NCBI GenBank assembly: GCA_944326255.1
Contig: CALVDG010000002.1
Location: 1 to 64,000, forward strand
Source of the DNA: an uncultured Bacteroidales bacterium
GTDB lineage: Bacteria; Bacteroidota; Bacteroidia; Bacteroidales; UBA932
DNA length: 64,000 nt
Direction: 5' to 3'
Each line of letters starts with the position of its first letter. Positions within the stretch are counted from its first letter, which is position 1. The notes beneath the pieces were generated by a model. That model did not search any database. It had not been told where the DNA came from and saw nothing but the letters and a program-made list of their open reading frames with translations. A program made the position numbers and the translations under genes. This document shows, in pieces, positions 37,342-51,158 of this stretch.

Positions 37342-38412
37342 ATGAAAGAAGCACTATTACATCTCGGAAAAGACTTTGCGGTCAAAGGATTTTCCTTCGG
37401 CTATGAGGGCCGTGCCGACGGAGAGGTGGTCTTCAACACCGCCATGGTCGGCTATCCCGAATCCCTCACCGACCCTTCCTACTCGGGTCAGATATTATGT
37501 GTAACCTACCCTCTTGTAGGCAACTACGGAGTTCCTGAAGAGAAGACGGCCGACGGTATTTCCGTCAACTTCGAGTCCGAGCGCATCCACGTCCGGGGCC
37601 TGATCATCTCCGACTACTCCTTCAAGTACAGCCACTGGAGCGCGGTCAAGAGCCTGGATGAGTGGCTCAAGGAGTACCGCATCCCCGGCATCTTCGGAGT
37701 GGACACCAGGGAGATCACCAAGATCCTCCGCGAGCAGGGCTCCATGCCCGGCTGCATCGTGCCCGAGGGCTTCGAGGTACCGGAGACGCTCTACGATCCG
37801 GGTTCCGAGAACCAGGTGGCCATCGTCAGCTGCAAGGAGGTGATCCGCTACGGCAACCCCTCCGGCAAGAAAGTAGTGCTGCTCGACTGCGGAGTCAAGA
37901 ACAACATCCTCCGCTGCCTGCTCCGCTCAGGCGACATTGAGGTCATCCGCGTGCCCTGGGACTACGATTTCAACACGATGGAGTACGATGGTCTGTTCAT
38001 CTCCAACGGTCCCGGCAACCCGGAGTACTGCGGCGAGGCCGTCCGCAACATTCAAAAAGCCATGGCGGCTGAGAAGCCGATATTCGGTATCTGCATGGGC
38101 AACCAGCTGCTGGCCAAGGCCGGAGGCGCATCTACCTTCAAGCTCAAATACGGTCACCGCAGCCACAACCAGCCCGTCCGCCTCGTAGGCACCGAACGTT
38201 GCTACGTCACCTCCCAGAACCACGGTTACGCTGTGGACGGAGACACCCTCGGCACTGACTGGGAGCCACTCTTCGTCAATATGAACGACGGCACCAACGA
38301 GGGCCTGCGGCACAAGAGCGGCCGCTTCTTCTCCGTGCAGTTCCATCCCGAAGCGTCCAGCGGTCCGACCGACACCGAATTCCTCTTTGACAAATTCATT
38401 AAAATGCTGTAG
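37342..38412 (+). CDS. carA: Carbamoyl-phosphate synthase small (glutaminase) subunit
   Basis: 356 residues, normal length. The N-terminal CarA domain is followed by a class-I glutamine amidotransferase with the nucleophile in GICMGNQLL and the His/Glu in FHPEASSGP. It supplies ammonia from glutamine to CarB for arginine and pyrimidine synthesis. It lies 3 nt before carB and is the promoter-proximal gene of a long plus-strand run that continues into the Hdr-like genes. Confidence 0.98.
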   Translation: MKEALLHLGKDFAVKGFSFGYEGRADGEVVFNTAMVGYPESLTDPSYSGQILCVTYPLVGNYGVPEEKTADGISVNFESERIHVRGLIISDYSFKYSHWSAVKSLDEWLKEYRIPGIFGVDTREITKILREQGSMPGCIVPEGFEVPETLYDPGSENQVAIVSCKEVIRYGNPSGKKVVLLDCGVKNNILRCLLRSGDIEVIRVPWDYDFNTMEYDGLFISNGPGNPEYCGEAVRNIQKAMAAEKPIFGICMGNQLLAKAGGASTFKLKYGHRSHNQPVRLVGTERCYVTSQNHGYAVDGDTLGTDWEPLFVNMNDGTNEGLRHKSGRFFSVQFHPEASSGPTDTEFLFDKFIKML

Positions 38413-38415
38413 ACC

Positions 38416-41400
38416 ATGATCGACACCACTATAAAGAAAGTCCTGCTCCTGGGTTCGGGAGCACTCAAAATCGGTGAGGCCGGCGAGTTCGACTACTCCG
38501 GCTCCCAGGCCCTCAAGGCCATGCGCGAGGAAGGCATAGAGACTATCCTGATCAATCCCAATATCGCTACCGTCCAGACATCGGAAGGTATAGCCGACAA
38601 GATATATTTCCTCCCCGTGACACCCTTCTTCGTGGAGGCGGTCATCAGGAAGGAGCAGCCCCAGGGCATTCTCCTCGCATTCGGAGGTCAGACCGCACTG
38701 AACTGCGGAGTGGCCCTGTACAGGGAGGGAATTCTGGAAAAATACAATCTGAAGGTGCTCGGCACCCCCGTCCAGGCAATCATGGACACCGAGGACCGCG
38801 AGCTCTTCGTCAAGAGGCTCGACGAGATCAATGTCAAGTCCATAAAGAGCCATGCGGTCAGCAATATCGAGGACGCCCTCGCCGCAGCCTCCGAGCTCGG
38901 CTATCCGGTAATTCTCCGCGCGGCCTACGCCCTCGGCGGTCTCGGCAGCGGATTCTGCGACAATCCGGACGAACTTATCAAGTTGGGAGAGAAAGCCTTC
39001 TCCTACTCACCTCAAGTGCTGGTGGAGAAGTCCCTCAAGGGCTGGAAGGAGATAGAATACGAGGTGGTGCGCGACCGCTACGACAACTGCATCACGGTCT
39101 GCAACATGGAGAACTTCGACCCGCTCGGAATCCATACCGGCGAGAGTATCGTGGTCGCTCCTTCCCAGACCCTGACCAACCATGAGTACAATCTGCTCCG
39201 CGAGCTCTCGATACGCATCGTCCGTCACGTGGGCATCGTCGGCGAGTGCAACGTGCAGTTCGCCTTTGACCCCAACTCCGAGGACTACCGCGTCATCGAG
39301 GTCAATGCCCGTCTGAGCCGCTCCTCGGCCCTGGCCTCCAAGGCTACGGGTTATCCCCTCGCCTTTGTGGCCGCCAAGCTCGGCTTGGGCTACGGCCTGT
39401 TCGAGCTGAAGAACTCCATTACCAAGACTACTCCGGCCTTCTTCGAGCCCGCACTGGACTACGTGGTCTGCAAGATTCCCCGCTGGGACCTCTCCAAGTT
39501 CCACGGCGTGTCCCGTGAGATCGGCAGCAGCATGAAGAGCGTCGGTGAGGTAATGGCTATCGGCCGCACCTTCGAGGAAGCCCTGCAGAAGGGTCTGAGA
39601 ATGATCGGACAGGGAGCCCACGGCTTCACCGGCAACAAGGAGATCCCAATAGAGAACATCGACAAGGCTCTCCGCGAGCCCACCGACAACCGCATCTTTG
39701 TCATATCCAAGGCCCTGACCCACGGCTACACCCCCGAGAAGATACACGAGCTCACCAAGATAGACCGCTGGTTCATCGACAAGCTGATGAACATCATCTA
39801 CACTGCCGCAGAACTCTCCGCCCTGAACTCCCTCGAGGAACTGGGCGAGCCCCTGCTGCGTCAGGCCAAGCGCCAGGGCTTCTCCGACTTCCAGATCGGA
39901 CGTCACATACTCAAGGACCGCATCGACTCTGAAGAGATGGTGATTAAGGTGCGCGAGTACCGCAAGAAACTCGGGGTGCTGCCCGTCGTCAAGCAGATCG
40001 ACACCCTCGCAGCCGAGTTCCCCGCCCAGACCAACTACCTCTACCTGACATACAACGGTACTGCATCCGACATAGCCTATGAACATGACGGCAAGTCTAT
40101 TGTCGTGCTCGGATCTGGTGCCTACCGTATCGGCAGCTCCGTGGAGTTCGACTGGTGCAGCGTCAACGCCCTGCAGACCATCCGCAAGAGCGGCTGGAGG
40201 GGCATCATGATCAACTACAACCCCGAGACCGTATCCACCGACTACGATATGTGCGACCGCCTCTACTTCGACGAGCTCACCTACGAGAGGGTGCTCGACA
40301 TCTGCGACCTGGAGGAGCCGCACGGAGTCATCATATCCATGGGTGGACAGATTCCCAACAACCTGGCCACCCGCCTCGATGCAGCCAGGGTGCCCATCCT
40401 CGGCACTACCGCCGACAGCATCGACAACGCCGAGGACCGCAACCGCTTCTCGGCCATGCTCGACCGCCTCGGCATAGACCAGCCCAGATGGAGGGAGCTG
40501 ACCTCGATGAACGACATCCACAGTTTCATCCGCGATGTGGGATTCCCCGTCCTGGTGCGTCCCTCATACGTGCTTTCCGGTGCGGCCATGAACGTCTGCT
40601 CCAACGACACTGAGCTCGAGCAGTTCCTTAAATTGGCCGCGGAAGTATCGAAGAAACACCCTGTTGTGGTCTCAGAATTCATCCAGCATGCCAAGGAGAT
40701 AGAGTTCGATGCAGTGGCAGACCACGGTACTGTCATCGCCTATGCCATCTCGGAGCACATAGAGTTTGCAGGAGTGCACTCGGGCGATGCGACGATACAG
40801 TTCCCTCCCCAGAAGCTGTACGTGGAGACAGCCCGCAGAATCAAGAAGATAGCCCGCAAGATCGCCGAGGCCCTGAAGATTTCCGGCCCGTTCAACATCC
40901 AGTTCCTGGCCAAGGAGAACGACATCAAGGTCATCGAATGCAACCTCAGGGCCTCGAGAAGTTTCCCCTTCGTGTCCAAGGTGCTTAAGATCAACCTTAT
41001 CGAGCTGGCCACCAAGGTCATGACCGGAGAGAAGGTCACTCCTCCTGAAAAGAGTGCGTTCGACCTGGACTACGTAGGCGTGAAGGCATCCCAGTTCTCC
41101 TTCTCCCGTCTGCAGAAGGCCGACCCTGTCCTCGGAGTGGACATGGCCTCCACCGGAGAGGTGGGCTGCATCGGAGATGACACCAACGAGGCAGTGCTCA
41201 AGGCCATGCTCTCAGTAGGCTATACCGTGCCAGGCAAGAATATCCTGGTATCCTCTGGCGATGCCAAGCAGAAAGTAGAGCTCCTGGGTGCCTGCAAGCT
41301 GCTGGCCAAGCACAATTACTCGATATTTGCCACGGGCGGAAGCTACAAGTTCCTGGTGGACAACGGAGTACCTGCCACTCTGGTATACTGGCCGTCGGAA

Positions 41401-41637
41401 GCCGGAGAGCCTCAGGCCCTGGAGATGCTTCACGAGCGCAAGATAGACCTGGTGGTCAATATCCCTAAGAATCTCACCAAGGAGGAACTGGACAACGGCT
41501 ACCGCATCCGCCGCGCCGCCGTGGACTTCAACATCCCGATTATAACCAACACCAGGCTTGCATCGGCTTTCATCACGGCATTCTGCAACATGCCCCTCGA
41601 CAATATCCAGATCAAGTCCTGGGACGAATACAGATAG
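38416..41637 (+). CDS. carB: Carbamoyl-phosphate synthase large subunit
   Basis: 1073 residues, normal length. Two homologous halves each hold a pre-ATP-grasp motif (LLLGSGALKIGEAGEFDYSG and VVLGSGAYRIGSSVEFDW) and an ATP-grasp domain. A C-terminal MGS-like allosteric domain (KHNYSIFATGGSYKFL) normally binds UMP or IMP. It makes carbamoyl phosphate from bicarbonate, ammonia and two ATP. The Hdr-like operon starts 12 nt downstream, so read-through is likely. Confidence 0.98.
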   Translation: MIDTTIKKVLLLGSGALKIGEAGEFDYSGSQALKAMREEGIETILINPNIATVQTSEGIADKIYFLPVTPFFVEAVIRKEQPQGILLAFGGQTALNCGVALYREGILEKYNLKVLGTPVQAIMDTEDRELFVKRLDEINVKSIKSHAVSNIEDALAAASELGYPVILRAAYALGGLGSGFCDNPDELIKLGEKAFSYSPQVLVEKSLKGWKEIEYEVVRDRYDNCITVCNMENFDPLGIHTGESIVVAPSQTLTNHEYNLLRELSIRIVRHVGIVGECNVQFAFDPNSEDYRVIEVNARLSRSSALASKATGYPLAFVAAKLGLGYGLFELKNSITKTTPAFFEPALDYVVCKIPRWDLSKFHGVSREIGSSMKSVGEVMAIGRTFEEALQKGLRMIGQGAHGFTGNKEIPIENIDKALREPTDNRIFVISKALTHGYTPEKIHELTKIDRWFIDKLMNIIYTAAELSALNSLEELGEPLLRQAKRQGFSDFQIGRHILKDRIDSEEMVIKVREYRKKLGVLPVVKQIDTLAAEFPAQTNYLYLTYNGTASDIAYEHDGKSIVVLGSGAYRIGSSVEFDWCSVNALQTIRKSGWRGIMINYNPETVSTDYDMCDRLYFDELTYERVLDICDLEEPHGVIISMGGQIPNNLATRLDAARVPILGTTADSIDNAEDRNRFSAMLDRLGIDQPRWRELTSMNDIHSFIRDVGFPVLVRPSYVLSGAAMNVCSNDTELEQFLKLAAEVSKKHPVVVSEFIQHAKEIEFDAVADHGTVIAYAISEHIEFAGVHSGDATIQFPPQKLYVETARRIKKIARKIAEALKISGPFNIQFLAKENDIKVIECNLRASRSFPFVSKVLKINLIELATKVMTGEKVTPPEKSAFDLDYVGVKASQFSFSRLQKADPVLGVDMASTGEVGCIGDDTNEAVLKAMLSVGYTVPGKNILVSSGDAKQKVELLGACKLLAKHNYSIFATGGSYKFLVDNGVPATLVYWPSEAGEPQALEMLHERKIDLVVNIPKNLTKEELDNGYRIRRAAVDFNIPIITNTRLASAFITAFCNMPLDNIQIKSWDEYR

Positions 41638-41649
41638 ACCGCAATTATT

Positions 41650-42354
41650 ATGGGTAAGATATACGAACGGCTGATGAGCGACGTCCGGCTCCAGGAGGGA
41701 CTGAAGGCCTGCATCAACTGCGGGACCTGCACCGCCGTGTGCCCGGCTGCCGAATTCTACCGCTACAACCCCAAGAACATCGTCAACATCGTCCAGACCC
41801 AGGACGACGAGGAGATCATCAAGCTGCTCAAGAGCGATACGATATGGTACTGCGGCGAGTGCATGTCCTGCGTGACCCGCTGTCCCAGGACCAATGCCCC
41901 CGGGCAGGTCATCATCGCCCTGCGCACCCTCTCCGTCGAGCTGGGCTACTTCGTGGAGTCCGAGAAAGGCCGGCAGCAGTATGCCCTGGCCAAGGTGCTC
42001 TGCGGCAATGTCCTCAATTACGGTTACTGCGTCCATCCCGAGACCTTCAAGTACGCCTCCCATCCTGAGTACGGGACGGTAGGCAAATGGATTGAGGACC
42101 ATCTGCAGGACGTGTACGACCGCGTGGGAGCCAACTATGGAAAGAGCGGCCCGGGTCCCCTGCGCAAGATTGCCCGGGAGTCCCTTGACGACCTTCAGAA
42201 GATATTTGACGTGACAGGCGGCTCGGCCCGGGTCGAGAAGATTAAGGACCTCTCGCGCAAGAAGGCTCAGGAGATGGGACTGAGCGAGGAAGAGTATTTC
42301 AACGAAGTGTTCAATGAGACTCATGGTGAGCACCTTAACCAACAGAATCAGTAG
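41650..42354 (+). CDS. HdrC-like 4Fe-4S dicluster protein (first copy)
   Basis: 234 residues. Two cluster motifs, CINCGTCTAVCP and CGECMSCVTRCP, match heterodisulfide reductase subunit C. The C-terminal half is charged and helical. In Hdr complexes HdrC passes electrons between the flavin subunit HdrA and the catalytic HdrB. Bacteroidales lack coenzymes M and B, so the disulfide or other substrate differs from that in methanogens. It is the first of five tightly linked genes (6 nt to HdrB). Confidence 0.88.
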   Translation: MGKIYERLMSDVRLQEGLKACINCGTCTAVCPAAEFYRYNPKNIVNIVQTQDDEEIIKLLKSDTIWYCGECMSCVTRCPRTNAPGQVIIALRTLSVELGYFVESEKGRQQYALAKVLCGNVLNYGYCVHPETFKYASHPEYGTVGKWIEDHLQDVYDRVGANYGKSGPGPLRKIARESLDDLQKIFDVTGGSARVEKIKDLSRKKAQEMGLSEEEYFNEVFNETHGEHLNQQNQ

Positions 42355-42360
42355 TACCGC

Positions 42361-43434
42361 ATGAATTACGAAGGAAAGAAAAAAATATGGTCCGAGTTCC
42401 AGAAAGAGATACCCGATGACAAGTATTTCTACGCCCGCAGCTGCATCCGCCAGAACTTCAATCCGGGTGCGGAGCAGGCCTTTCTGGACATAGTGCGCAA
42501 CCGCTTCGGCAAGGATTTCTATGAGGATCCACTCCACACTACCTGCGGAGGCATAGCATACCACAGCGACACCACGCCTGAAGAGACGTCGATGACTATC
42601 ATCGCCCGCCAGTTCTCGCTGATGAACCAGGCCGGCTACAGGAATTTCGTGGTATCCTGCGTCACCTCCTTCGGTCTGCATACCGAGATTCTCCAGACAT
42701 GGGAGGAGCATCCGGAGATTGAGGCCAAAATACACGAACTGCTCTGGAAAGCCTGTAAACGGGAGTTTACCAAGCCGGACTTCCTGATGCACTCCAGCGA
42801 CATGATGTACCACTACCGCTTCCTGATATCGGAGCAGGCCAGGTATCCGCTGATAAACGTACATACCGGGGAGCCTCTGAAAGTAGTCGAGCACATAGGC
42901 TGCCACTACTCCAAGATCTTCCCCTCCAAGTCTGTCGGCGGTGCCGAATACCCGCGTGTCCTGGCCGGGCTTGTAGAGGCCCTGGGAGGCAGCGTGGTGG
43001 ACTATCCGGAACGCAGACACTGCTGCGGCTTCGGTTTCCGGCAGTATCTGGTCAAGGCCAACAGAGGCTATTCCCTGACCAATACCTACAAGAAGTTCGA
43101 GTCCATGGAACCGTTCCACCCCGACCTGATCATCACCAACTGCCCGGGCTGCAACTACTTCCTGGACCGCTGGCAGTATGTCATCGCAGAGACATCCGGC
43201 AAGACATACGGAGATACTCCCGGCTACGGCATACCGGTGCTCTCATCCGAAGAAGTGTCCGCGCTGGTCATGGGCTATGACCCCTGGGACCTCGGCCTGC
43301 AGATGCACCAGGTAGCCGTGGAGCCGCTGCTGGACAAGATGGGAGTGCAGTACGACAAATCCCGTAAATACAAGGGTGTGGGCGGCAAGGACCTCGGAAT
43401 CCCGGCCAGCCCCGCCAACATCAGAATATTCTAA
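42361..43434 (+). CDS. HdrB-like CCG-domain protein
   Basis: 357 residues. Cysteine-rich CCG motifs occur at GCHYSK, CCGFGF and NCPGCNYF, the kind that bind the non-cubane iron-sulfur clusters cleaving disulfides in HdrB. An earlier region (HTTCGGIAYHSD, then VVSCVTSFGLH) supplies the first CCG-like half. This would be the catalytic subunit of the complex. It lies between the HdrC-like and HdrA-like genes, with 20 nt to the next. The substrate cannot be told from sequence. Confidence 0.88.
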   Translation: MNYEGKKKIWSEFQKEIPDDKYFYARSCIRQNFNPGAEQAFLDIVRNRFGKDFYEDPLHTTCGGIAYHSDTTPEETSMTIIARQFSLMNQAGYRNFVVSCVTSFGLHTEILQTWEEHPEIEAKIHELLWKACKREFTKPDFLMHSSDMMYHYRFLISEQARYPLINVHTGEPLKVVEHIGCHYSKIFPSKSVGGAEYPRVLAGLVEALGGSVVDYPERRHCCGFGFRQYLVKANRGYSLTNTYKKFESMEPFHPDLIITNCPGCNYFLDRWQYVIAETSGKTYGDTPGYGIPVLSSEEVSALVMGYDPWDLGLQMHQVAVEPLLDKMGVQYDKSRKYKGVGGKDLGIPASPANIRIF

Positions 43435-43454
43435 GCCTCATACACCGACAATAT

Positions 43455-44480
43455 ATGGAACTGACCAATCAACAGAGAAATGTAGTGATAATCGGCGGAG
43501 GACCGGCCGGAATAGAGGCTTCCAAAGCCCTGGATGCCCTCGGATATACGGTTTTCCTTATCGAGAGAGAGAACCGTCTGGGCGGACATCTGGGCCGCTG
43601 GGACCGTCTCTTTCCATACGGAACTCCGGCAGATGATGTCCTGGGACAGATGACAGCCTCTATGGGCAGAGTCAAGTGGTTCACCTCCACTGAAGTTACT
43701 CAGCTCAATAAACTGGAGCGGGGCTACAATGTTATCCTGTCCAACGGTCTGTCAGTCCTGGCTGATGCACTGCTTCTGACTACCGGATTCACCCTTTTCA
43801 ATGCATCAAAGAAAGAGGAATACGGCTACGGCATATACGACAAGGTGATAACAAACGCCGACCTGGAAGATTATTTCTCAGGGATCCCTGTCCCGGCTGT
43901 AGGCAATCCGCGCCGCATAGGATTCGTACACTGCGTGGGCTCCCGTGACGAGAAGGTAGGCAACCGCTACTGCTCCAAGGTATGCTGCGCCACGGCCGTC
44001 AAGCAGGCCTGCGAGATCAAGCAGCAGTTTCCGGATGCGGTAGTGTACTGTTTCTATATGGACCTCCGTATGTTCGGACGCGGATACGAGGACATGTATC
44101 TCGAAGCCCAGAAGAAATACGGCGTGATCTTCGTCAGGGGCCGTGTCTCGGAAGTCTCCGAGGACAAGGACGGCCACCTCTTCGTCAAGGCTGAGGACAC
44201 GCTCTCCGGCAAGCCGCTCAGAGTGACCCTGGACCTGCTGGTCCTCATGGCCGGGATGTCCCACAACAGGGCTGTGGATCCGATAGCGCGTACCCTCGCG
44301 CTCTCCACCATGGAGGACGGTTTCCTCAAGCCCAAGGACTCACTCACAGCCGCACAGGCGTCCTACTGCACGGGAGTATTCTACGCCGGTGCATGTACCG
44401 GCCCCAAGACACTGCCTGAGACCATGGCCGAGGCCCGGGCCGCCGCTACAAATATTCACGAATACCTGCAGGAACAATGA
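43455..44480 (+). CDS. HdrA-like FAD and Fe-S subunit
   Basis: 341 residues, shorter than methanogen HdrA (about 650). The N-terminal dinucleotide fold IIGGGPAGIEA precedes CSKVCCATAVKQA, the HdrA-type cysteine motif. The C-terminal ferredoxin domain found in long HdrA is absent, which is also the pattern of QmoA-like proteins. It probably holds FAD and splits or relays electron pairs. The end overlaps the next gene by 4 nt (ATGA). Confidence 0.88.
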   Translation: MELTNQQRNVVIIGGGPAGIEASKALDALGYTVFLIERENRLGGHLGRWDRLFPYGTPADDVLGQMTASMGRVKWFTSTEVTQLNKLERGYNVILSNGLSVLADALLLTTGFTLFNASKKEEYGYGIYDKVITNADLEDYFSGIPVPAVGNPRRIGFVHCVGSRDEKVGNRYCSKVCCATAVKQACEIKQQFPDAVVYCFYMDLRMFGRGYEDMYLEAQKKYGVIFVRGRVSEVSEDKDGHLFVKAEDTLSGKPLRVTLDLLVLMAGMSHNRAVDPIARTLALSTMEDGFLKPKDSLTAAQASYCTGVFYAGACTGPKTLPETMAEARAAATNIHEYLQEQ

Positions 44481-44806
44481 TAGACTTTGGATACGGCATA
44501 TCACCCAGTTCGGCAATCAATCTGGACAAGTTCGACAGGACCAGGTTCGAGGAACTTGCCCGCGAGGAGCCGGACGTGCTGAAGTGCATGGCCTGCGGTT
44601 CATGTGCGGCCTCCTGTCCGACCGCCGGACACAGCGACATGAATCTAAGGAAGGTGATCCTGCTGCTCGGACGCGGGCGCGAGGACGAGGCCCTCAGGAT
44701 GGTCTCCCACTGTATGCTCTGCGGCAAATGCCTGATAGTCTGCCCCCGCGGCATCAACACCAGGCATCTGATACCAAGTGTAACTAAAATCTACCAAAAG
44801 AAGTGA
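44477..44806 (+). CDS. HdrC-like 4Fe-4S dicluster protein (second, short copy)
   Basis: 109 residues, with CMACGSCAASCP and CMLCGKCLIVCP as two cubane-cluster motifs. It is a minimal HdrC without the extension of the first copy. Its start overlaps the HdrA-like gene by 4 nt and its end overlaps the membrane subunit by 4 nt, with GTG as that gene's start, so the three are translationally coupled. It probably links the soluble complex to the membrane protein. Confidence 0.87.
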   Translation: MIDFGYGISPSSAINLDKFDRTRFEELAREEPDVLKCMACGSCAASCPTAGHSDMNLRKVILLLGRGREDEALRMVSHCMLCGKCLIVCPRGINTRHLIPSVTKIYQKK

Positions 44807-46641
44807 AAGACAGGTTCATATCAGGATACAACGATTTCGTACTCCCCTTCGTGATAGGCATGAGTTTCATACTCATCTATCTGGCTATCGGGATAATACG
44901 GGTCATAGCCCAGCTGCCCGCCCAGGACCGCAAAAAGTTCTTCCTCTCCCTGATCAACCCCAAGCTCTGGATAATCAACCTCAAGGACATCATCTGCGAC
45001 GTCCTCCTGCACACCAGGATATGGAAGCGCAAGCCGCTGTTGGGCTACATGCACTCCAGCATCGCCTTCGGATGGTTCATGCTTATTGTCCTCGGACATA
45101 TTGAGACATGGATGTTTGTACCGGACAGACTGTCCACTTTCTACTATCCGGTATTCTTCCGTTTTTTCGTCATGGAAACAGACCATACCATCGGAGGCTC
45201 ATTCTTCTTCTTCCTGATGGACTTCTTTCTACTGATCGTGCTCAGCGGTGTATTTCTGGCCATGTTCAAGCGTATCCGCTCCAGGATATTCGGCATGAGA
45301 AGAACTACAAACAACCAGCTTCCGGACAGGATTGCAATGTACTGCCTATGGGCTATTTTCCCGGTGAGACTGCTGGCTGAAAGTTTTACCGCCGGTATTG
45401 CCGGAGGCAGTTTCCTCACCCGCCCTATGTATTGGCTCTTCAGCAACTTCCTGACCAATACCTACCACATCCTGCCGACCTGGTGGGCCTACTCTACCCT
45501 CCTCGGCACCTTCTTTGTACTGCTGCCATTCACCCGGTACATGCATATCCCTACGGAGGCCTTCCTGATAGTCCTGCGCAATGCCGGCATCAAAGTCTCC
45601 CATCCCCGCAAAGGCTACTCCATCGCCCAGATATACTCATGCTCCAACTGCGGAATGTGCATTGACGCATGTCCGATGATGGGGCAGAAGAAGAACCTGC
45701 GCTATGCCACCGTATATTTCAACCGTCTGCTGCGCCGCCGCAACTGGGCCCGCTGCGAGGAGAGCGCGGACAAATGCCTGATGTGCGGCAAGTGCGTGGC
45801 GGTATGCCCCGTCGGTGTCGACTCCTGCAACATCAAGCGCAGCCTTCGGGGTCTGAAAGCAGCCCCCGCTCCCGCAGATTACGGCTATTTCTCCACTTAC
45901 AGTCTGTCCGAAAGCGCCACCACATCCCCATCGTCTGCAGAACCAGCTGCGGGACAGGAGAAAATCCTGTATTATGCCGGCTGCATGACCCAGCTGACAC
46001 CCGTTATCTCCAAAGCTGTCGGAACGGTACTTGACCGGGCAGGCGTGAACTGGGAGTTCATGGACCGGGACGGCGGCATCTGCTGCGGACGGCCGCTGAT
46101 ATTGGCCGGAAGGGACGAGCGTGCCAGGGAGATGATCCGGAGCAATACCGAACTGATACGGCAGAGCGGAGCCACAGTACTGCTTCTCTCCTGCCCCATC
46201 TGCTACAAGGTGTTCCGGGAGAATTACGACTTGAAAGGCATCCGGATCGTGCATTATACCGAATATTTCGACGAGCTCGTGCGGCTTGGCAGGATAACAC
46301 TCAGGAATTCAGGTGAGAAACTCGTTTACCATGATCCCTGCGAGCTGGGACGCGGCTGCAAGGTGTACAAGGAGCCCCGGAGGGTGCTCGGTGCCGTTGG
46401 AGAGCTGGTGGAGGCGGAGAAACACCACGACGAGAGCATCTGCTGCGGAGGCTCGCTGGGCTCGCTGACATTGTCCTATGAGGACCGCAAGGACATAACC
46501 ATGCACTCTCTGGACAATCTGTTGTATGCATCTCCTGAACGGATAGTCACGGCCTGTCCGCTTTGCCTGAAGACATTCTCCCCCTATTCACCTAAAAAAG
46601 TGAGCGACTTCGCGGAAGTTGTCGCACAGAATATGAATTAA
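44803..46641 (+). CDS. Membrane Fe-S oxidoreductase, HmcF/DsrK-like with NarI-like membrane domain
   Basis: 612 residues with a GTG start. About five membrane segments fill 1-250, like a DsrM/NarI-type heme b subunit. Two cluster motifs (CSNCGMCIDACP and CLMCGKCVAVCP) follow, then paired CCG domains (YAGCMTQL, GGICCGR, SCPICYKVF, then DPCELGRG, CCGGSLGS, ACPLCLKTF). It therefore fuses what DsrM and DsrK do as two proteins in sulfate reducers. It would exchange electrons between menaquinone and the Hdr-like partners. It is the last gene of the five, 24 nt before cysteate synthase. Confidence 0.88.
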   Translation: MKDRFISGYNDFVLPFVIGMSFILIYLAIGIIRVIAQLPAQDRKKFFLSLINPKLWIINLKDIICDVLLHTRIWKRKPLLGYMHSSIAFGWFMLIVLGHIETWMFVPDRLSTFYYPVFFRFFVMETDHTIGGSFFFFLMDFFLLIVLSGVFLAMFKRIRSRIFGMRRTTNNQLPDRIAMYCLWAIFPVRLLAESFTAGIAGGSFLTRPMYWLFSNFLTNTYHILPTWWAYSTLLGTFFVLLPFTRYMHIPTEAFLIVLRNAGIKVSHPRKGYSIAQIYSCSNCGMCIDACPMMGQKKNLRYATVYFNRLLRRRNWARCEESADKCLMCGKCVAVCPVGVDSCNIKRSLRGLKAAPAPADYGYFSTYSLSESATTSPSSAEPAAGQEKILYYAGCMTQLTPVISKAVGTVLDRAGVNWEFMDRDGGICCGRPLILAGRDERAREMIRSNTELIRQSGATVLLLSCPICYKVFRENYDLKGIRIVHYTEYFDELVRLGRITLRNSGEKLVYHDPCELGRGCKVYKEPRRVLGAVGELVEAEKHHDESICCGGSLGSLTLSYEDRKDITMHSLDNLLYASPERIVTACPLCLKTFSPYSPKKVSDFAEVVAQNMN

Positions 46642-46665: not shown

Positions 46666-47958
46666 ATGAAAAGTTTTACTCCAACAGTGTACTCGCTGAT
46701 GAATGTGGCCACGGGAAGAGTATTCCCTGATGCCGGATGGATGCTGGCCGACCCGGAGTCTTCCAAGCCGTCGCTGGTGCGTGCGGTCTATCAGAAGAAG
46801 CAGATAGACGTCAAGGGCAGCGACTGGGGTTTCTACCGCTTCGCAGACTGGCTGCCGGTACACCGCCTGCTGCGTGATTCGGCGACAACTGTCACATACA
46901 GAAGTGAGGGACTGGCCCGTCACCTGGGTCTGGGCAATCTCTACATAGCATTCTCAGGCTACTGGCCCGAAAGAGGCGCACTGATGAAGACCTGCTCGTT
47001 CAAGGAGACCGAGGCCTATTCGGTCTGCGGCCGTCTGCCTTTGGACTGCAGGCAGATACTTACTGTGGCTTCCGCCGGCAATACGGCCAGGGCTTTCGCC
47101 AGAGTCTGCTCGGAGAATGACATACCCCTGCTGCTCTGCGTACCGGAGGACAATATCGACGCTCTCTGGTTCGAGAAACCCATAAAGGACTGTGTCAAGC
47201 TTGTCTGCGCCCCCAAGGGCAGTGATTATTTTGATGCCATAGCCCTCTCTCAGATAGCTGCATCCTCAGGAATGTTCGTTGACGAGGGCGGTGCCAAGAA
47301 TGTGGCCCGTCGCGACGGCATGGGTACGACCGTGCTCTCTGCCACTGTGGAGATCGGCCGGATACCCGACGCATACTTTCAGGCCATAGGCAGCGGCACA
47401 GGCGCCATTGCGGCCCGTGAGGCCAATCTTCGTCTGCTGGAGGACGGCCGCTTCGGTTCGGCTCAGATGAAGCTGCATACGGTACAGAATGTGCCTTTCC
47501 TGCCGATGTACGACGCATGGAAGGCCGGTCAGAGGGATCTGCTGCCCTTCGATGACGACGAGGCCCGTCAGAAAGCCGCAATGATCGACGCCAAGGTGCT
47601 CTCCAACAGACGTCCGCCCTATTCGCTCGCCGGAGGAGTGTACGACTGTCTGTGCGACTCACACGGTGATGTCTATGCGGTCACCAACGCCGAGATCCGC
47701 CATTGCGCCGCCATGTTCAAGGAGCTGGAGGGAGTGGACATCTACTCCGCCTCTGGTGCCGCGCTGGCCGGTCTGGAGCAGGCCGTGAAATCCGGTGCCG
47801 TAGGTCGCGACGACGTGATAATGCTCAATATCACAGGCGGTGGTGAGCTGCACTTCAAGAAGGACTGCAAGGTGCATTACCTGCAGCCGTCTCTAGTCAT
47901 TTCTCCGTCAGAAGACCGGGAGAAGATTATCCGGGAGATTGAAGGGCTGTTCGCATAG
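46666..47958 (+). CDS. Cysteate synthase (PLP-dependent, threonine-synthase-like)
   Basis: 430 residues. The fold is that of threonine synthase, with the PLP lysine at K113 in TCSFKETEAY and glycine-rich GSGTGAIAAR for the phosphate. As I recall, proteins with this pattern in Bacteroidetes are assigned as cysteate synthase, which makes L-cysteate from O-phosphoserine and sulfite. Cysteate is the head-group precursor of sulfonolipids (sulfobacins) of Alistipes-type bacteria. It follows the Hdr-like operon by 24 nt and may share its transcript. Threonine synthase activity is the main alternative. Confidence 0.8.
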   Translation: MKSFTPTVYSLMNVATGRVFPDAGWMLADPESSKPSLVRAVYQKKQIDVKGSDWGFYRFADWLPVHRLLRDSATTVTYRSEGLARHLGLGNLYIAFSGYWPERGALMKTCSFKETEAYSVCGRLPLDCRQILTVASAGNTARAFARVCSENDIPLLLCVPEDNIDALWFEKPIKDCVKLVCAPKGSDYFDAIALSQIAASSGMFVDEGGAKNVARRDGMGTTVLSATVEIGRIPDAYFQAIGSGTGAIAAREANLRLLEDGRFGSAQMKLHTVQNVPFLPMYDAWKAGQRDLLPFDDDEARQKAAMIDAKVLSNRRPPYSLAGGVYDCLCDSHGDVYAVTNAEIRHCAAMFKELEGVDIYSASGAALAGLEQAVKSGAVGRDDVIMLNITGGGELHFKKDCKVHYLQPSLVISPSEDREKIIREIEGLFA

Positions 47959-49471: not shown

Positions 49472-50007
49472 ACGATATCCACATAAACAACGGATACTAC
49501 AGGCTGCGGCCGGCGACGATGGAGGAGATTCCGGTCATCTGGGAGATCATCCTGCAGGCCAAGGCACAGATGTACCGCGAGGGCAAGCACCAGTGGGACG
49601 AGAACTACCCTACCGTGCCGATTCTGGAAAACGATGTGCGCCGGGGCTGGGGTTACGTGCTGGTACCGTCTGATGATGATTCTGACATCATCGCCTACGG
49701 TGCAGTGGTCTTCGACGGAGAGTCGGCATACAGCGGACTGCAGGACGGTCAGTGGCTGAGCGGGCAGCCCTACGTGGTACTGCACCGCCTGGCAGTGGCC
49801 GACCGCTGGAAACGTCAGGGCATGGCCGTCCGCTACATGCAGGCAGTCTGCGACCTGGCCCTTTCCCGCGACATCCGAAGTTTCAAAGTCGACACCAACT
49901 ACGACAACTTCTACATGCAGCGCGTCTTCTCCCGCCTCGGCTTCACCTACTGCGGCCGCATCCGCTACGATGCCGGCGAGCGCATGGCCTACGAAAAGCT
50001 GCTGTAA
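49468..50007 (+). CDS. GNAT acetyltransferase
   Basis: 179 residues. The GNAT core is visible: VVLHRLAVADRWKRQGMAVRYMQA carries the R/QxxGxG/A-type acetyl-CoA loop, and the last part (NFYMQRVFSRLGFTYCG) is the usual C-terminal strand. The substrate is unknown. The last 57 coding bases plus the stop and a few more (49951-50011) are repeated at 51099-51158 on the far side of rhuM, so rhuM was inserted just behind or into this gene's end. Confidence 0.88.
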   Translation: MNDIHINNGYYRLRPATMEEIPVIWEIILQAKAQMYREGKHQWDENYPTVPILENDVRRGWGYVLVPSDDDSDIIAYGAVVFDGESAYSGLQDGQWLSGQPYVVLHRLAVADRWKRQGMAVRYMQAVCDLALSRDIRSFKVDTNYDNFYMQRVFSRLGFTYCGRIRYDAGERMAYEKLL

Positions 50008-50011
50008 ACAT
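49951..50011 (+). repeat. Left direct repeat around the rhuM insertion
   Basis: 61 nt covering the last codons and stop of the acetyltransferase. The copy at 51099-51158 is identical except for one missing C. Similarity stops sharply at both edges. Confidence 0.9.
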
Positions 50012-50056
50012 AAATTGCAAATTTTTCCTACATTTGTTATTTTATTGAACGGAAAT

Positions 50057-51076
50057 ATGCAAGCCATGGCCGACGGAACACCACAGGGAAATATTATACT
50101 TTATCAGACCGAAGATGGGCAAAGCCGGATAGATGTCACTCTATCAGGCGATACAGTGTGGCTTACCGCAGATCAGATGGCCGAACTGTTCCAGCGCAAC
50201 AAGTCCACCATTTCAAGGCATATCCGCAATGTCTTTGAATCTGGGGAACTGAATCCGGATTCAACTGTTGCAATTTTTGCAACAGTTCAAAACGAGGGAA
50301 ACAGGAAAGTAGAACGAAACATAGCATACTACAACCTCGATGTAATCATCAGTGTCGGCTATAGGGTCAATTCCCACCGTGGCGTACAGTTCCGCATCTG
50401 GGCCACGCAAGTACTGCGCGAGTACCTTGTCAAAGGCTTTGCTATGAACGACGATCTTCTGAAACGCGCCGGCGGAGGCAATTACTTTGACGAACTCCTG
50501 GCACGCATTCGGGACATCCGCTCCTCGGAAAAGGTATTCTATCGCAAGATTCTGGAAATCTATGCCCTCAGCATAGACTATGACCCGAGAACAGAAGCCA
50601 CGCAGAAGTTCTTCAAGACAGTCCAGAACAAGATGCACTTCTCCGCTCACGGACATACTGCGGCGGAAGTCATTCACAGCAGAGCCAATGCCGACAAGGA
50701 CTTTATGGGGCTGACATCATGGACTGGAGCATTGCCGAAACGAACTGATGCCGGAATCGCCAAAAACTACCTTTCACCCGACGAACTCGATACCCTGAAC
50801 CGTATCGTCAGCCTTTACCTTGATTTTGCAGAACTCCAGGCCAAGTCTCACAAACCGATGTATATGAAGGACTGGATTCAGAAACTTGACGAATTCCTGT
50901 CACTTTCCGGCAAAGAGCTCCTGACCCATGCCGGGACAGTCTCTGCTGAAATCGCGAAACATAAGGCAGACTCCGAATACGACAAATACAGCAAACGGAT
51001 ACAGTATGAGCTCTCTCCCGTGGAAATCCATTTCATAGAGAGTTTTGAAAAGGAAGTCAAGCGGCTGAAAAAGTAA
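50057..51076 (+). CDS. RhuM-family protein
   Basis: 339 residues. The N-terminal part has the RhuM pattern: DTVWLTADQMAELFQRNKSTISRHI, then VERNIAYYNLDVIISVGYRVNS and FRIWATQVLREYL. A helical C-terminal region follows. The family was named from a Salmonella pathogenicity island; its biochemistry is not settled, and the N-terminus looks like a DNA-binding or Bro/KilA-type domain. Start 50057 gives MQAMADG; 50066 is an alternative. It occupies almost all of the 1.09 kb between two 60-nt direct repeats and is therefore a single-gene insertion. Confidence 0.88.
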   Translation: MQAMADGTPQGNIILYQTEDGQSRIDVTLSGDTVWLTADQMAELFQRNKSTISRHIRNVFESGELNPDSTVAIFATVQNEGNRKVERNIAYYNLDVIISVGYRVNSHRGVQFRIWATQVLREYLVKGFAMNDDLLKRAGGGNYFDELLARIRDIRSSEKVFYRKILEIYALSIDYDPRTEATQKFFKTVQNKMHFSAHGHTAAEVIHSRANADKDFMGLTSWTGALPKRTDAGIAKNYLSPDELDTLNRIVSLYLDFAELQAKSHKPMYMKDWIQKLDEFLSLSGKELLTHAGTVSAEIAKHKADSEYDKYSKRIQYELSPVEIHFIESFEKEVKRLKK

Positions 51077-51098
51077 GCGACAGCTCTGGGAATTCCTC

Positions 51099-51158
51099 TG
51101 CGGCCGCATCCGCTACGATGCGGCGAGCGCATGGCCTACGAAAAGCTGCTGTAAACAT
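51099..51158 (+). repeat. Right direct repeat around the rhuM insertion
   Basis: 60-nt copy of the acetyltransferase 3' end (one base deleted against 49951-50011). Its final bases TAAACAT run straight into the start codon of the next gene at 51157, showing the original junction between the acetyltransferase and that gene. Confidence 0.9.

Follow-up and report, generated by a model that had tools for sequence, protein, structure and literature searches.

The window analysed here is a 64,000-nucleotide stretch (positions 1 to 64,000 of the forward strand of contig CALVDG010000002.1, assembly GCA_944326255.1) from an uncultured, anaerobic gut bacterium of the Bacteroidales, closely related to Candidatus Coprenecus stercorigallinarum and to uncultured Bacteroidales. 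At positions 41650-46641 it carries five genes related to those of heterodisulfide reductase (Hdr), referred to here as the module. A preliminary description of the DNA had placed a five-gene Hdr-like operon at this position, in a non-methanogen and with a fused DsrMK-type membrane subunit; this was right, and all five open reading frames were found as described with the expected domains. The module and its neighbours in the same run are as follows.

41650..42354, + strand: HdrC1-like protein, 234 residues, two 4Fe-4S clusters (Fer4_8/9/10 domains)
42361..43434, + strand: HdrB1-like protein, 357 residues, proposed catalytic subunit (domains, CCG motifs)
43455..44480, + strand: short HdrA-like FAD/4Fe-4S protein, 341 residues (end-to-end match to PDB entry 6tjr, taken to be an sHdrA)
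44477..44806, + strand: HdrC2-like ferredoxin, 109 residues, two 4Fe-4S clusters (domains, conserved cysteines)
44803..46641, + strand: fusion of a membrane b-type cytochrome (NarI/HdrE/DsrM-like), a 4Fe-4S dicluster and two CCG domains (HdrB2/HdrD/DsrK-like), 612 residues (domains, AlphaFold model, EtfD match)
46666..47958, + strand: cysteate synthase (sulfite + phosphoserine to cysteate), 430 residues (TIGR03844)
37342..41637, + strand: carA and carB, for carbamoyl-phosphate synthase, preceding the module in its run (lineage-specific association)

The gaps between the HdrC1 and HdrB1 genes and between the HdrB1 and HdrA genes are 6 and 20 bp, respectively, while the HdrA/HdrC2 and HdrC2/fusion junctions are 4-bp overlaps and the fusion gene starts with GTG. 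Translational coupling, which had been claimed for the whole operon, therefore holds for HdrA-HdrC2-fusion, whereas at the first two junctions it is no more than likely. The co-directional run extends beyond the five genes, as carB ends 12 bp upstream and the cysteate synthase gene starts 24 bp downstream; the extent originally given was correct for the five genes but stopped one gene early. The carAB genes were considered as part of the function and rejected, because the association is limited to 14 of the 80 named loci, a set that leans towards the window's own relatives. Promoter and terminator scans gave values near background and were uninformative.

The 612-residue protein indeed joins a NarI/DsrM-like membrane part to HdrD/DsrK-like CCG domains, with a 4Fe-4S dicluster at residues 277-340 and two complete CCG domains. 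Its AlphaFold model is confident (pLDDT 90.5), and the best structural match is mycobacterial EtfD (PDB entry 9ojn; Z = 26 over 552 residues), with further matches to NarI for the membrane part (Z ~8.5) and to HdrB for the CCG part (Z ~22); the nearest solved structure is hence an ETF:menaquinone oxidoreductase and not a Dsr or Qmo protein. In EtfD, His78 and His241 bind heme b beside the menaquinone site (PMC13083937). The corresponding H84 and H248 of the fusion are invariant, with a spacing of 164 residues compared with 163 in EtfD, and the two proteins share the fold and the domain order: a five-helix NarI-like domain, a dicluster, two CCG domains and the heme b histidine pair. At its CCG clusters EtfD carries Thr539 where a cysteine has been lost and makes use of His583 (PMC13083937), and it works with EtfAB, whereas in the fusion all ten CCG cysteines are conserved, leaving both motifs complete (as matched to EtfD by motif order, not by residue-level structure), and the partner is the Hdr module. 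The scan of adjacent genes showed no EtfAB; no genome-wide search for it was made. We propose that the fusion would form the menaquinone end of the complex.

HdrC models match HdrC1 below their cut-offs, and its eight cluster cysteines are kept in 50 relatives. HdrB1 (AlphaFold pLDDT 78) has one complete CCG motif only: the C-terminal motif is complete and invariant (C181, C221, C222, C261 and C264), while the N-terminal motif is reduced to C28, C62 and C100. HdrA is without the additional ferredoxin domains found in the methanogen protein, which aligns with it mainly via its second half; among solved relatives, PDB entry 6tjr alone aligns end to end (34.6% identity over 324 residues), and we take this entry to be the sHdrA of Hyphomicrobium, the comparison with the sHdr (sulfur-oxidizing Hdr-like) set covering sHdrA only. 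Outside the phylum, the closest relative that could be read is an operon on a plasmid of Picosynechococcus sp. PCC 7003 (NZ_CP016476.1, 185219-190959), with the order C1-B1-A-C2-B2 followed by a true sulfide:quinone reductase. The C1, B1 and A proteins are 45, 40 and 44% identical to those of the window, and the gene order and the reduced N-terminal CCG motif in B1 are the same, but the plasmid has separate soluble C2 and B2 proteins and the sulfide:quinone reductase in place of the membrane fusion.

Scoring against the curated equivalog models for Hdr, Qmo, Dsr and Tmc showed that no Hdr protein of the operon reaches the curated cut-off of any of them. The models for the coenzyme B-coenzyme M HdrABC enzyme gave 84.6 bits against a cut-off of 350 for HdrC, 139 against 450 for HdrB and 250 against 1100 for HdrA2; QmoC gave 49.9 against 300 for the first gene and is not among the matches listed for the fusion, and DsrK gave 42 against 400. 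The methanogen HdrABC/HdrDE, DsrMK and Qmo systems thus share homologous domains with the module, and HdrE plus HdrD or DsrM plus DsrK are the two halves of the fusion, but the scores lie far below the cut-offs, HdrA is short and the gene sets are different. The sHdr types are defined as C1B1A-H-C2B2 or C1B1A-H-B3 with etfAB, and with LbpA as partner (PMC11582611). Their common core, C1-B1-A, is present in order, with a short HdrA free of extra domains and with HdrC2/HdrB2-type partners, and some copies of the module have sulfur-trafficking genes (TusA, DsrE-type) beside them. Type I has C2 and B2 as separate proteins, but here only C2 is separate and the B2 part is fused to the dicluster and membrane domains; type II has a B3 fusion together with clustered etfAB, and the adjacent genes scanned contain no etfAB. 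By context, the module would also be used for biosynthesis rather than for lithotrophy. Because sHdrH, adjacent etfAB and neighbouring LbpA or lipoate genes are missing, we describe the module as sHdr-like and do not file it as a member; the best reading is that it works like sHdr, as a membrane-anchored variant.

Across the order, an HdrB homologue is found in 54 of 159 genomes (53 besides the window's own, nearly all full length and with 53-71% identity), and the five genes are kept together in the same order at about 40 loci (57 order-wide loci were read), a conservation far beyond chance. No other genome among 295 of the phylum sample has the module at E <= 1e-60. The earlier statement that similar operons occur in Bacteroidales without a known role stands: no publication assigning a role was found, nor one joining sulfonolipid with heterodisulfide reductase, in a search that mostly lay outside the subscription literature. 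Two-component genes lie beside about nine module copies, and in L052, L069, L079, L089, L091, L092 and L095 the module is preceded by genes for a histidine kinase and a LuxR-type response regulator, a pair that may regulate it. L062, L067, L074 and L080 have only the C1 and HdrB genes of the module, next to genes for ORP/Mrp iron-sulfur carriers, DUF134, OsmC or methionine gamma-lyase, and were handled as a separate context.

The gene downstream of the module scores 457.4 bits with TIGR03844 (curated cut-off 324.9), and a cysteate synthase gene adjoins the module in 38 of the 80 named loci. Cysteate synthase uses sulfite and phosphoserine and is also shared with archaeal coenzyme M synthesis; SulA (cysteate-C-fatty acyltransferase), present on another contig of the window's genome (G000:C23:16600-17823, 62% identity), points to sulfonolipids instead of coenzyme M. 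At two loci (L188 and L191) SulA, an SDR-family gene, C1, B1, A, C2, the fusion and cysteate synthase follow each other on one strand with no foreign gene between them, and by family and position the SDR gene is taken as 3-ketocapnine reductase. SulA also lies within a few genes of the module in L085, L077, L082 and L097, the first three with a second cysteate-synthase-like gene beside it; in seven further members of the window's family, SulA and HdrB share a strand and SulA lies upstream by 0.7-1.7 kb. The best PDB match of the neighbour protein in those four loci is entry 7u7h (E = 6e-190), presumably SulA of Alistipes finegoldii, followed by the cysteate-C-fatty acyltransferase 28eh (E = 1e-177). 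The reaction of SulA has been described (PMC9304779).

Co-occurrence agrees with this linkage: SulA is present in 52 of 54 module genomes compared with 63 of 105 without the module in the order sample (p = 2e-7), and in 168 of 173 compared with 54 of 126 in the window's family (p = 3e-28), where both p values treat as independent genomes that are not. Of the two module genomes lacking SulA, one has a completeness of 76%, and for the second SulA is present in another genome of its genus. The converse is not true, as many SulA genomes do not have the module. The TIGR03844 cysteate synthase alone was tried as the co-occurring partner and rejected, with an overlap of just 18 compared with 13.6 expected. 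This weak overlap is explained by a second, mutually exclusive cysteate-synthase-like family (37 and 27 of the SulA genomes carry one or the other type, and none carries both), so SulA was chosen as the pathway marker. This pyridoxal phosphate-dependent family (L077:15450-16670, L085:10412-11641 and 30 other genomes), which adjoins SulA in several of them, is by its sequence probably an alternative cysteate synthase. A glyoxalase/VOC-family protein of about 355 residues recurs beside SulA or the SDR gene (L191:6150-7217, L077:13172-14239, L208:10962-12065 and, by look, L202:13207-14262 and L204:13078-14199) and may be an unrecognized pathway gene. In G126, a 1.5-Mb, 99% complete genome of the window's genus, the module, cysteate synthase and SulA are all missing, which is consistent with loss of the whole pathway.

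In genomes without the module, CysH was found beside SulA and a cysteate-synthase-like gene (L201-L204 and L208); L208 seems to hold CysD and CysN there as well (named by eye). These clusters resemble those with the module in that a sulfite supplier adjoins SulA and a cysteate-synthase-like gene, but the sulfite comes from (phospho)adenosine phosphosulfate via CysH and not from an Hdr-like complex, so that two unrelated suppliers would appear at the same position. CysH occurs without the module in 54 of 115 SulA genomes, the module without CysH in 17 and the two together in 35, and nine have neither; 106 of the 115 thus have the module or CysH. No CysH was found in the window's genome, which is about 90% complete, making absences from it provisional. 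In organisms with sHdr, carriers bring sulfane sulfur, which sHdr oxidizes to sulfite (PMC11582611, PMC12423496). DsrE-type genes, TusA and FlpD adjoin a full module in L055. Separately, L072:1-14361 holds a C1-HdrB pair amid a TonB receptor, a sulfur transporter (PF04143), rhodaneses, a DsrE-type gene, TusA, FlpD and HdrA; this Bacteroidales cluster has the look of an island for importing and oxidizing sulfur.

We suggest, with a probability of roughly 65%, that the five genes encode an sHdr-like, membrane-anchored, menaquinone-coupled complex that oxidizes sulfane sulfur to sulfite for cysteate and sulfonolipid synthesis. The basis is gene neighbourhoods and co-occurrence; from this linkage we infer the chemistry, that is, the direction of the reaction, its sulfite product, the sulfur donor, the order of electron flow and menaquinone as acceptor, and every catalytic step below is a proposal. 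At its CCG iron-sulfur site, HdrB1 would convert carrier-held sulfane sulfur or a persulfide to sulfite. Electrons would pass from HdrC1 to the flavin and 4Fe-4S cluster of HdrA, then to HdrC2 and into the fusion, whose CCG and 4Fe-4S clusters and single heme b would lead them to menaquinone; the terminal acceptor would probably be fumarate. The adjacent cysteate synthase would consume the sulfite and SulA would convert the cysteate into the sulfonolipid backbone. The preliminary description had left the redox partner open, and was incomplete, since it made no use of the cysteate synthase next to the module, of the SulA connection or of the layout, with a short HdrA and the order C1-B1-A-C2-B2, that sHdr systems share. 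With potentials of -116 mV for sulfite/sulfide and -74 mV for menaquinone, we estimate that oxidation of sulfide to sulfite by menaquinone is slightly downhill. We also lean, if only a little, towards the broader view that anaerobic Bacteroidales make the sulfite for their lipids via a membrane-bound, menaquinone-linked Hdr-like complex, a biosynthetic and oxygen-independent form of sHdr-type chemistry that would do without sHdrH or a dedicated LbpA and replace CysH-based sulfate reduction.

Several observations weigh against the proposed sulfane sulfur oxidation. There is no sHdrH between HdrA and HdrC2, the genes of which overlap by 4 bp, no LbpA beside the operon, with only one GcvH-like gene in the window's genome, and no TusA in that genome; the sulfur donor is thus left without a candidate. 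A sulfonolipid gene lies in the read stretch of only about five of the 57 order-wide loci, and the relatedness of the genomes tempers the co-occurrence. The module is not the only possible sulfite source, since 35 of the 52 genomes with both module and SulA also have CysH, and nine SulA genomes have neither supplier. By our estimate, oxidation of S0 to sulfite by menaquinone would be near equilibrium, and slightly uphill unless cysteate synthase keeps sulfite low.

The closeness of the fusion fold to EtfD, and of its CCG part to HdrB, would also suit an enzyme of general redox balance or respiration, either a disulfide reductase or a thiol oxidase, that is linked to menaquinone and acts like HdrDE or EtfD on some carrier, with the sulfonolipid genes as neighbours by shared habitat or chance; that these genes are not near most order-wide loci fits as well. 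We consider this rather unlikely, as SulA occurs in 96-97% of module genomes in two samples, the module lies within contiguous clusters running from SulA and SDR to cysteate synthase, and the adjacent genes scanned include no EtfAB. The same linkage and co-occurrence would be expected of a sulfonolipid-pathway enzyme that makes no free sulfite, either oxidizing a thiol or persulfide directly towards the sulfonate or carrying out a redox step in capnine modification, and some module genomes have no recognized cysteate synthase gene. A sulfite-using cysteate synthase nevertheless stands directly downstream in the window and in the named loci counted above, and a sulfite producer, CysH, occupies the same place elsewhere, which makes such an enzyme improbable. 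Finally, Hdr-type enzymes are reversible in principle and sulfite is toxic (PMC12423496), so the complex might run in reverse and use menaquinol to reduce sulfite, or something derived from it, for detoxification or to control overflow; with the cyanobacterial homologue paired with sulfide:quinone reductase, and with no CysH and hence no evident sulfite supply in the window's genome, we regard this as very improbable.

Sulfonolipids, which occur in Bacteroidota of the gut and the environment, are bioactive. SulA, ketocapnine reductase and cysteate formation have been described, with sulfite or its source in anaerobes unmentioned (PMC9304779, PMC11211663, PMC10191378). Sulfane sulfur oxidation by the module would name a candidate enzyme for this missing raw material; if true, sulfur oxidation of the sHdr type would extend beyond lithotrophy to strict anaerobes that couple it to menaquinone, and an unassigned Hdr-like operon present in about one third of the sampled genomes of the order would have an explanation.

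Elsewhere in the window, a RhuM-family gene (49970-51076; PF13310, E = 1e-114) is flanked by a near-perfect 62-bp direct repeat (49950-50011 and 51098-51158). The repeat is a copy of the 3'-terminal part of the acetyltransferase gene next to it, and an insertion might leave such a repeat.

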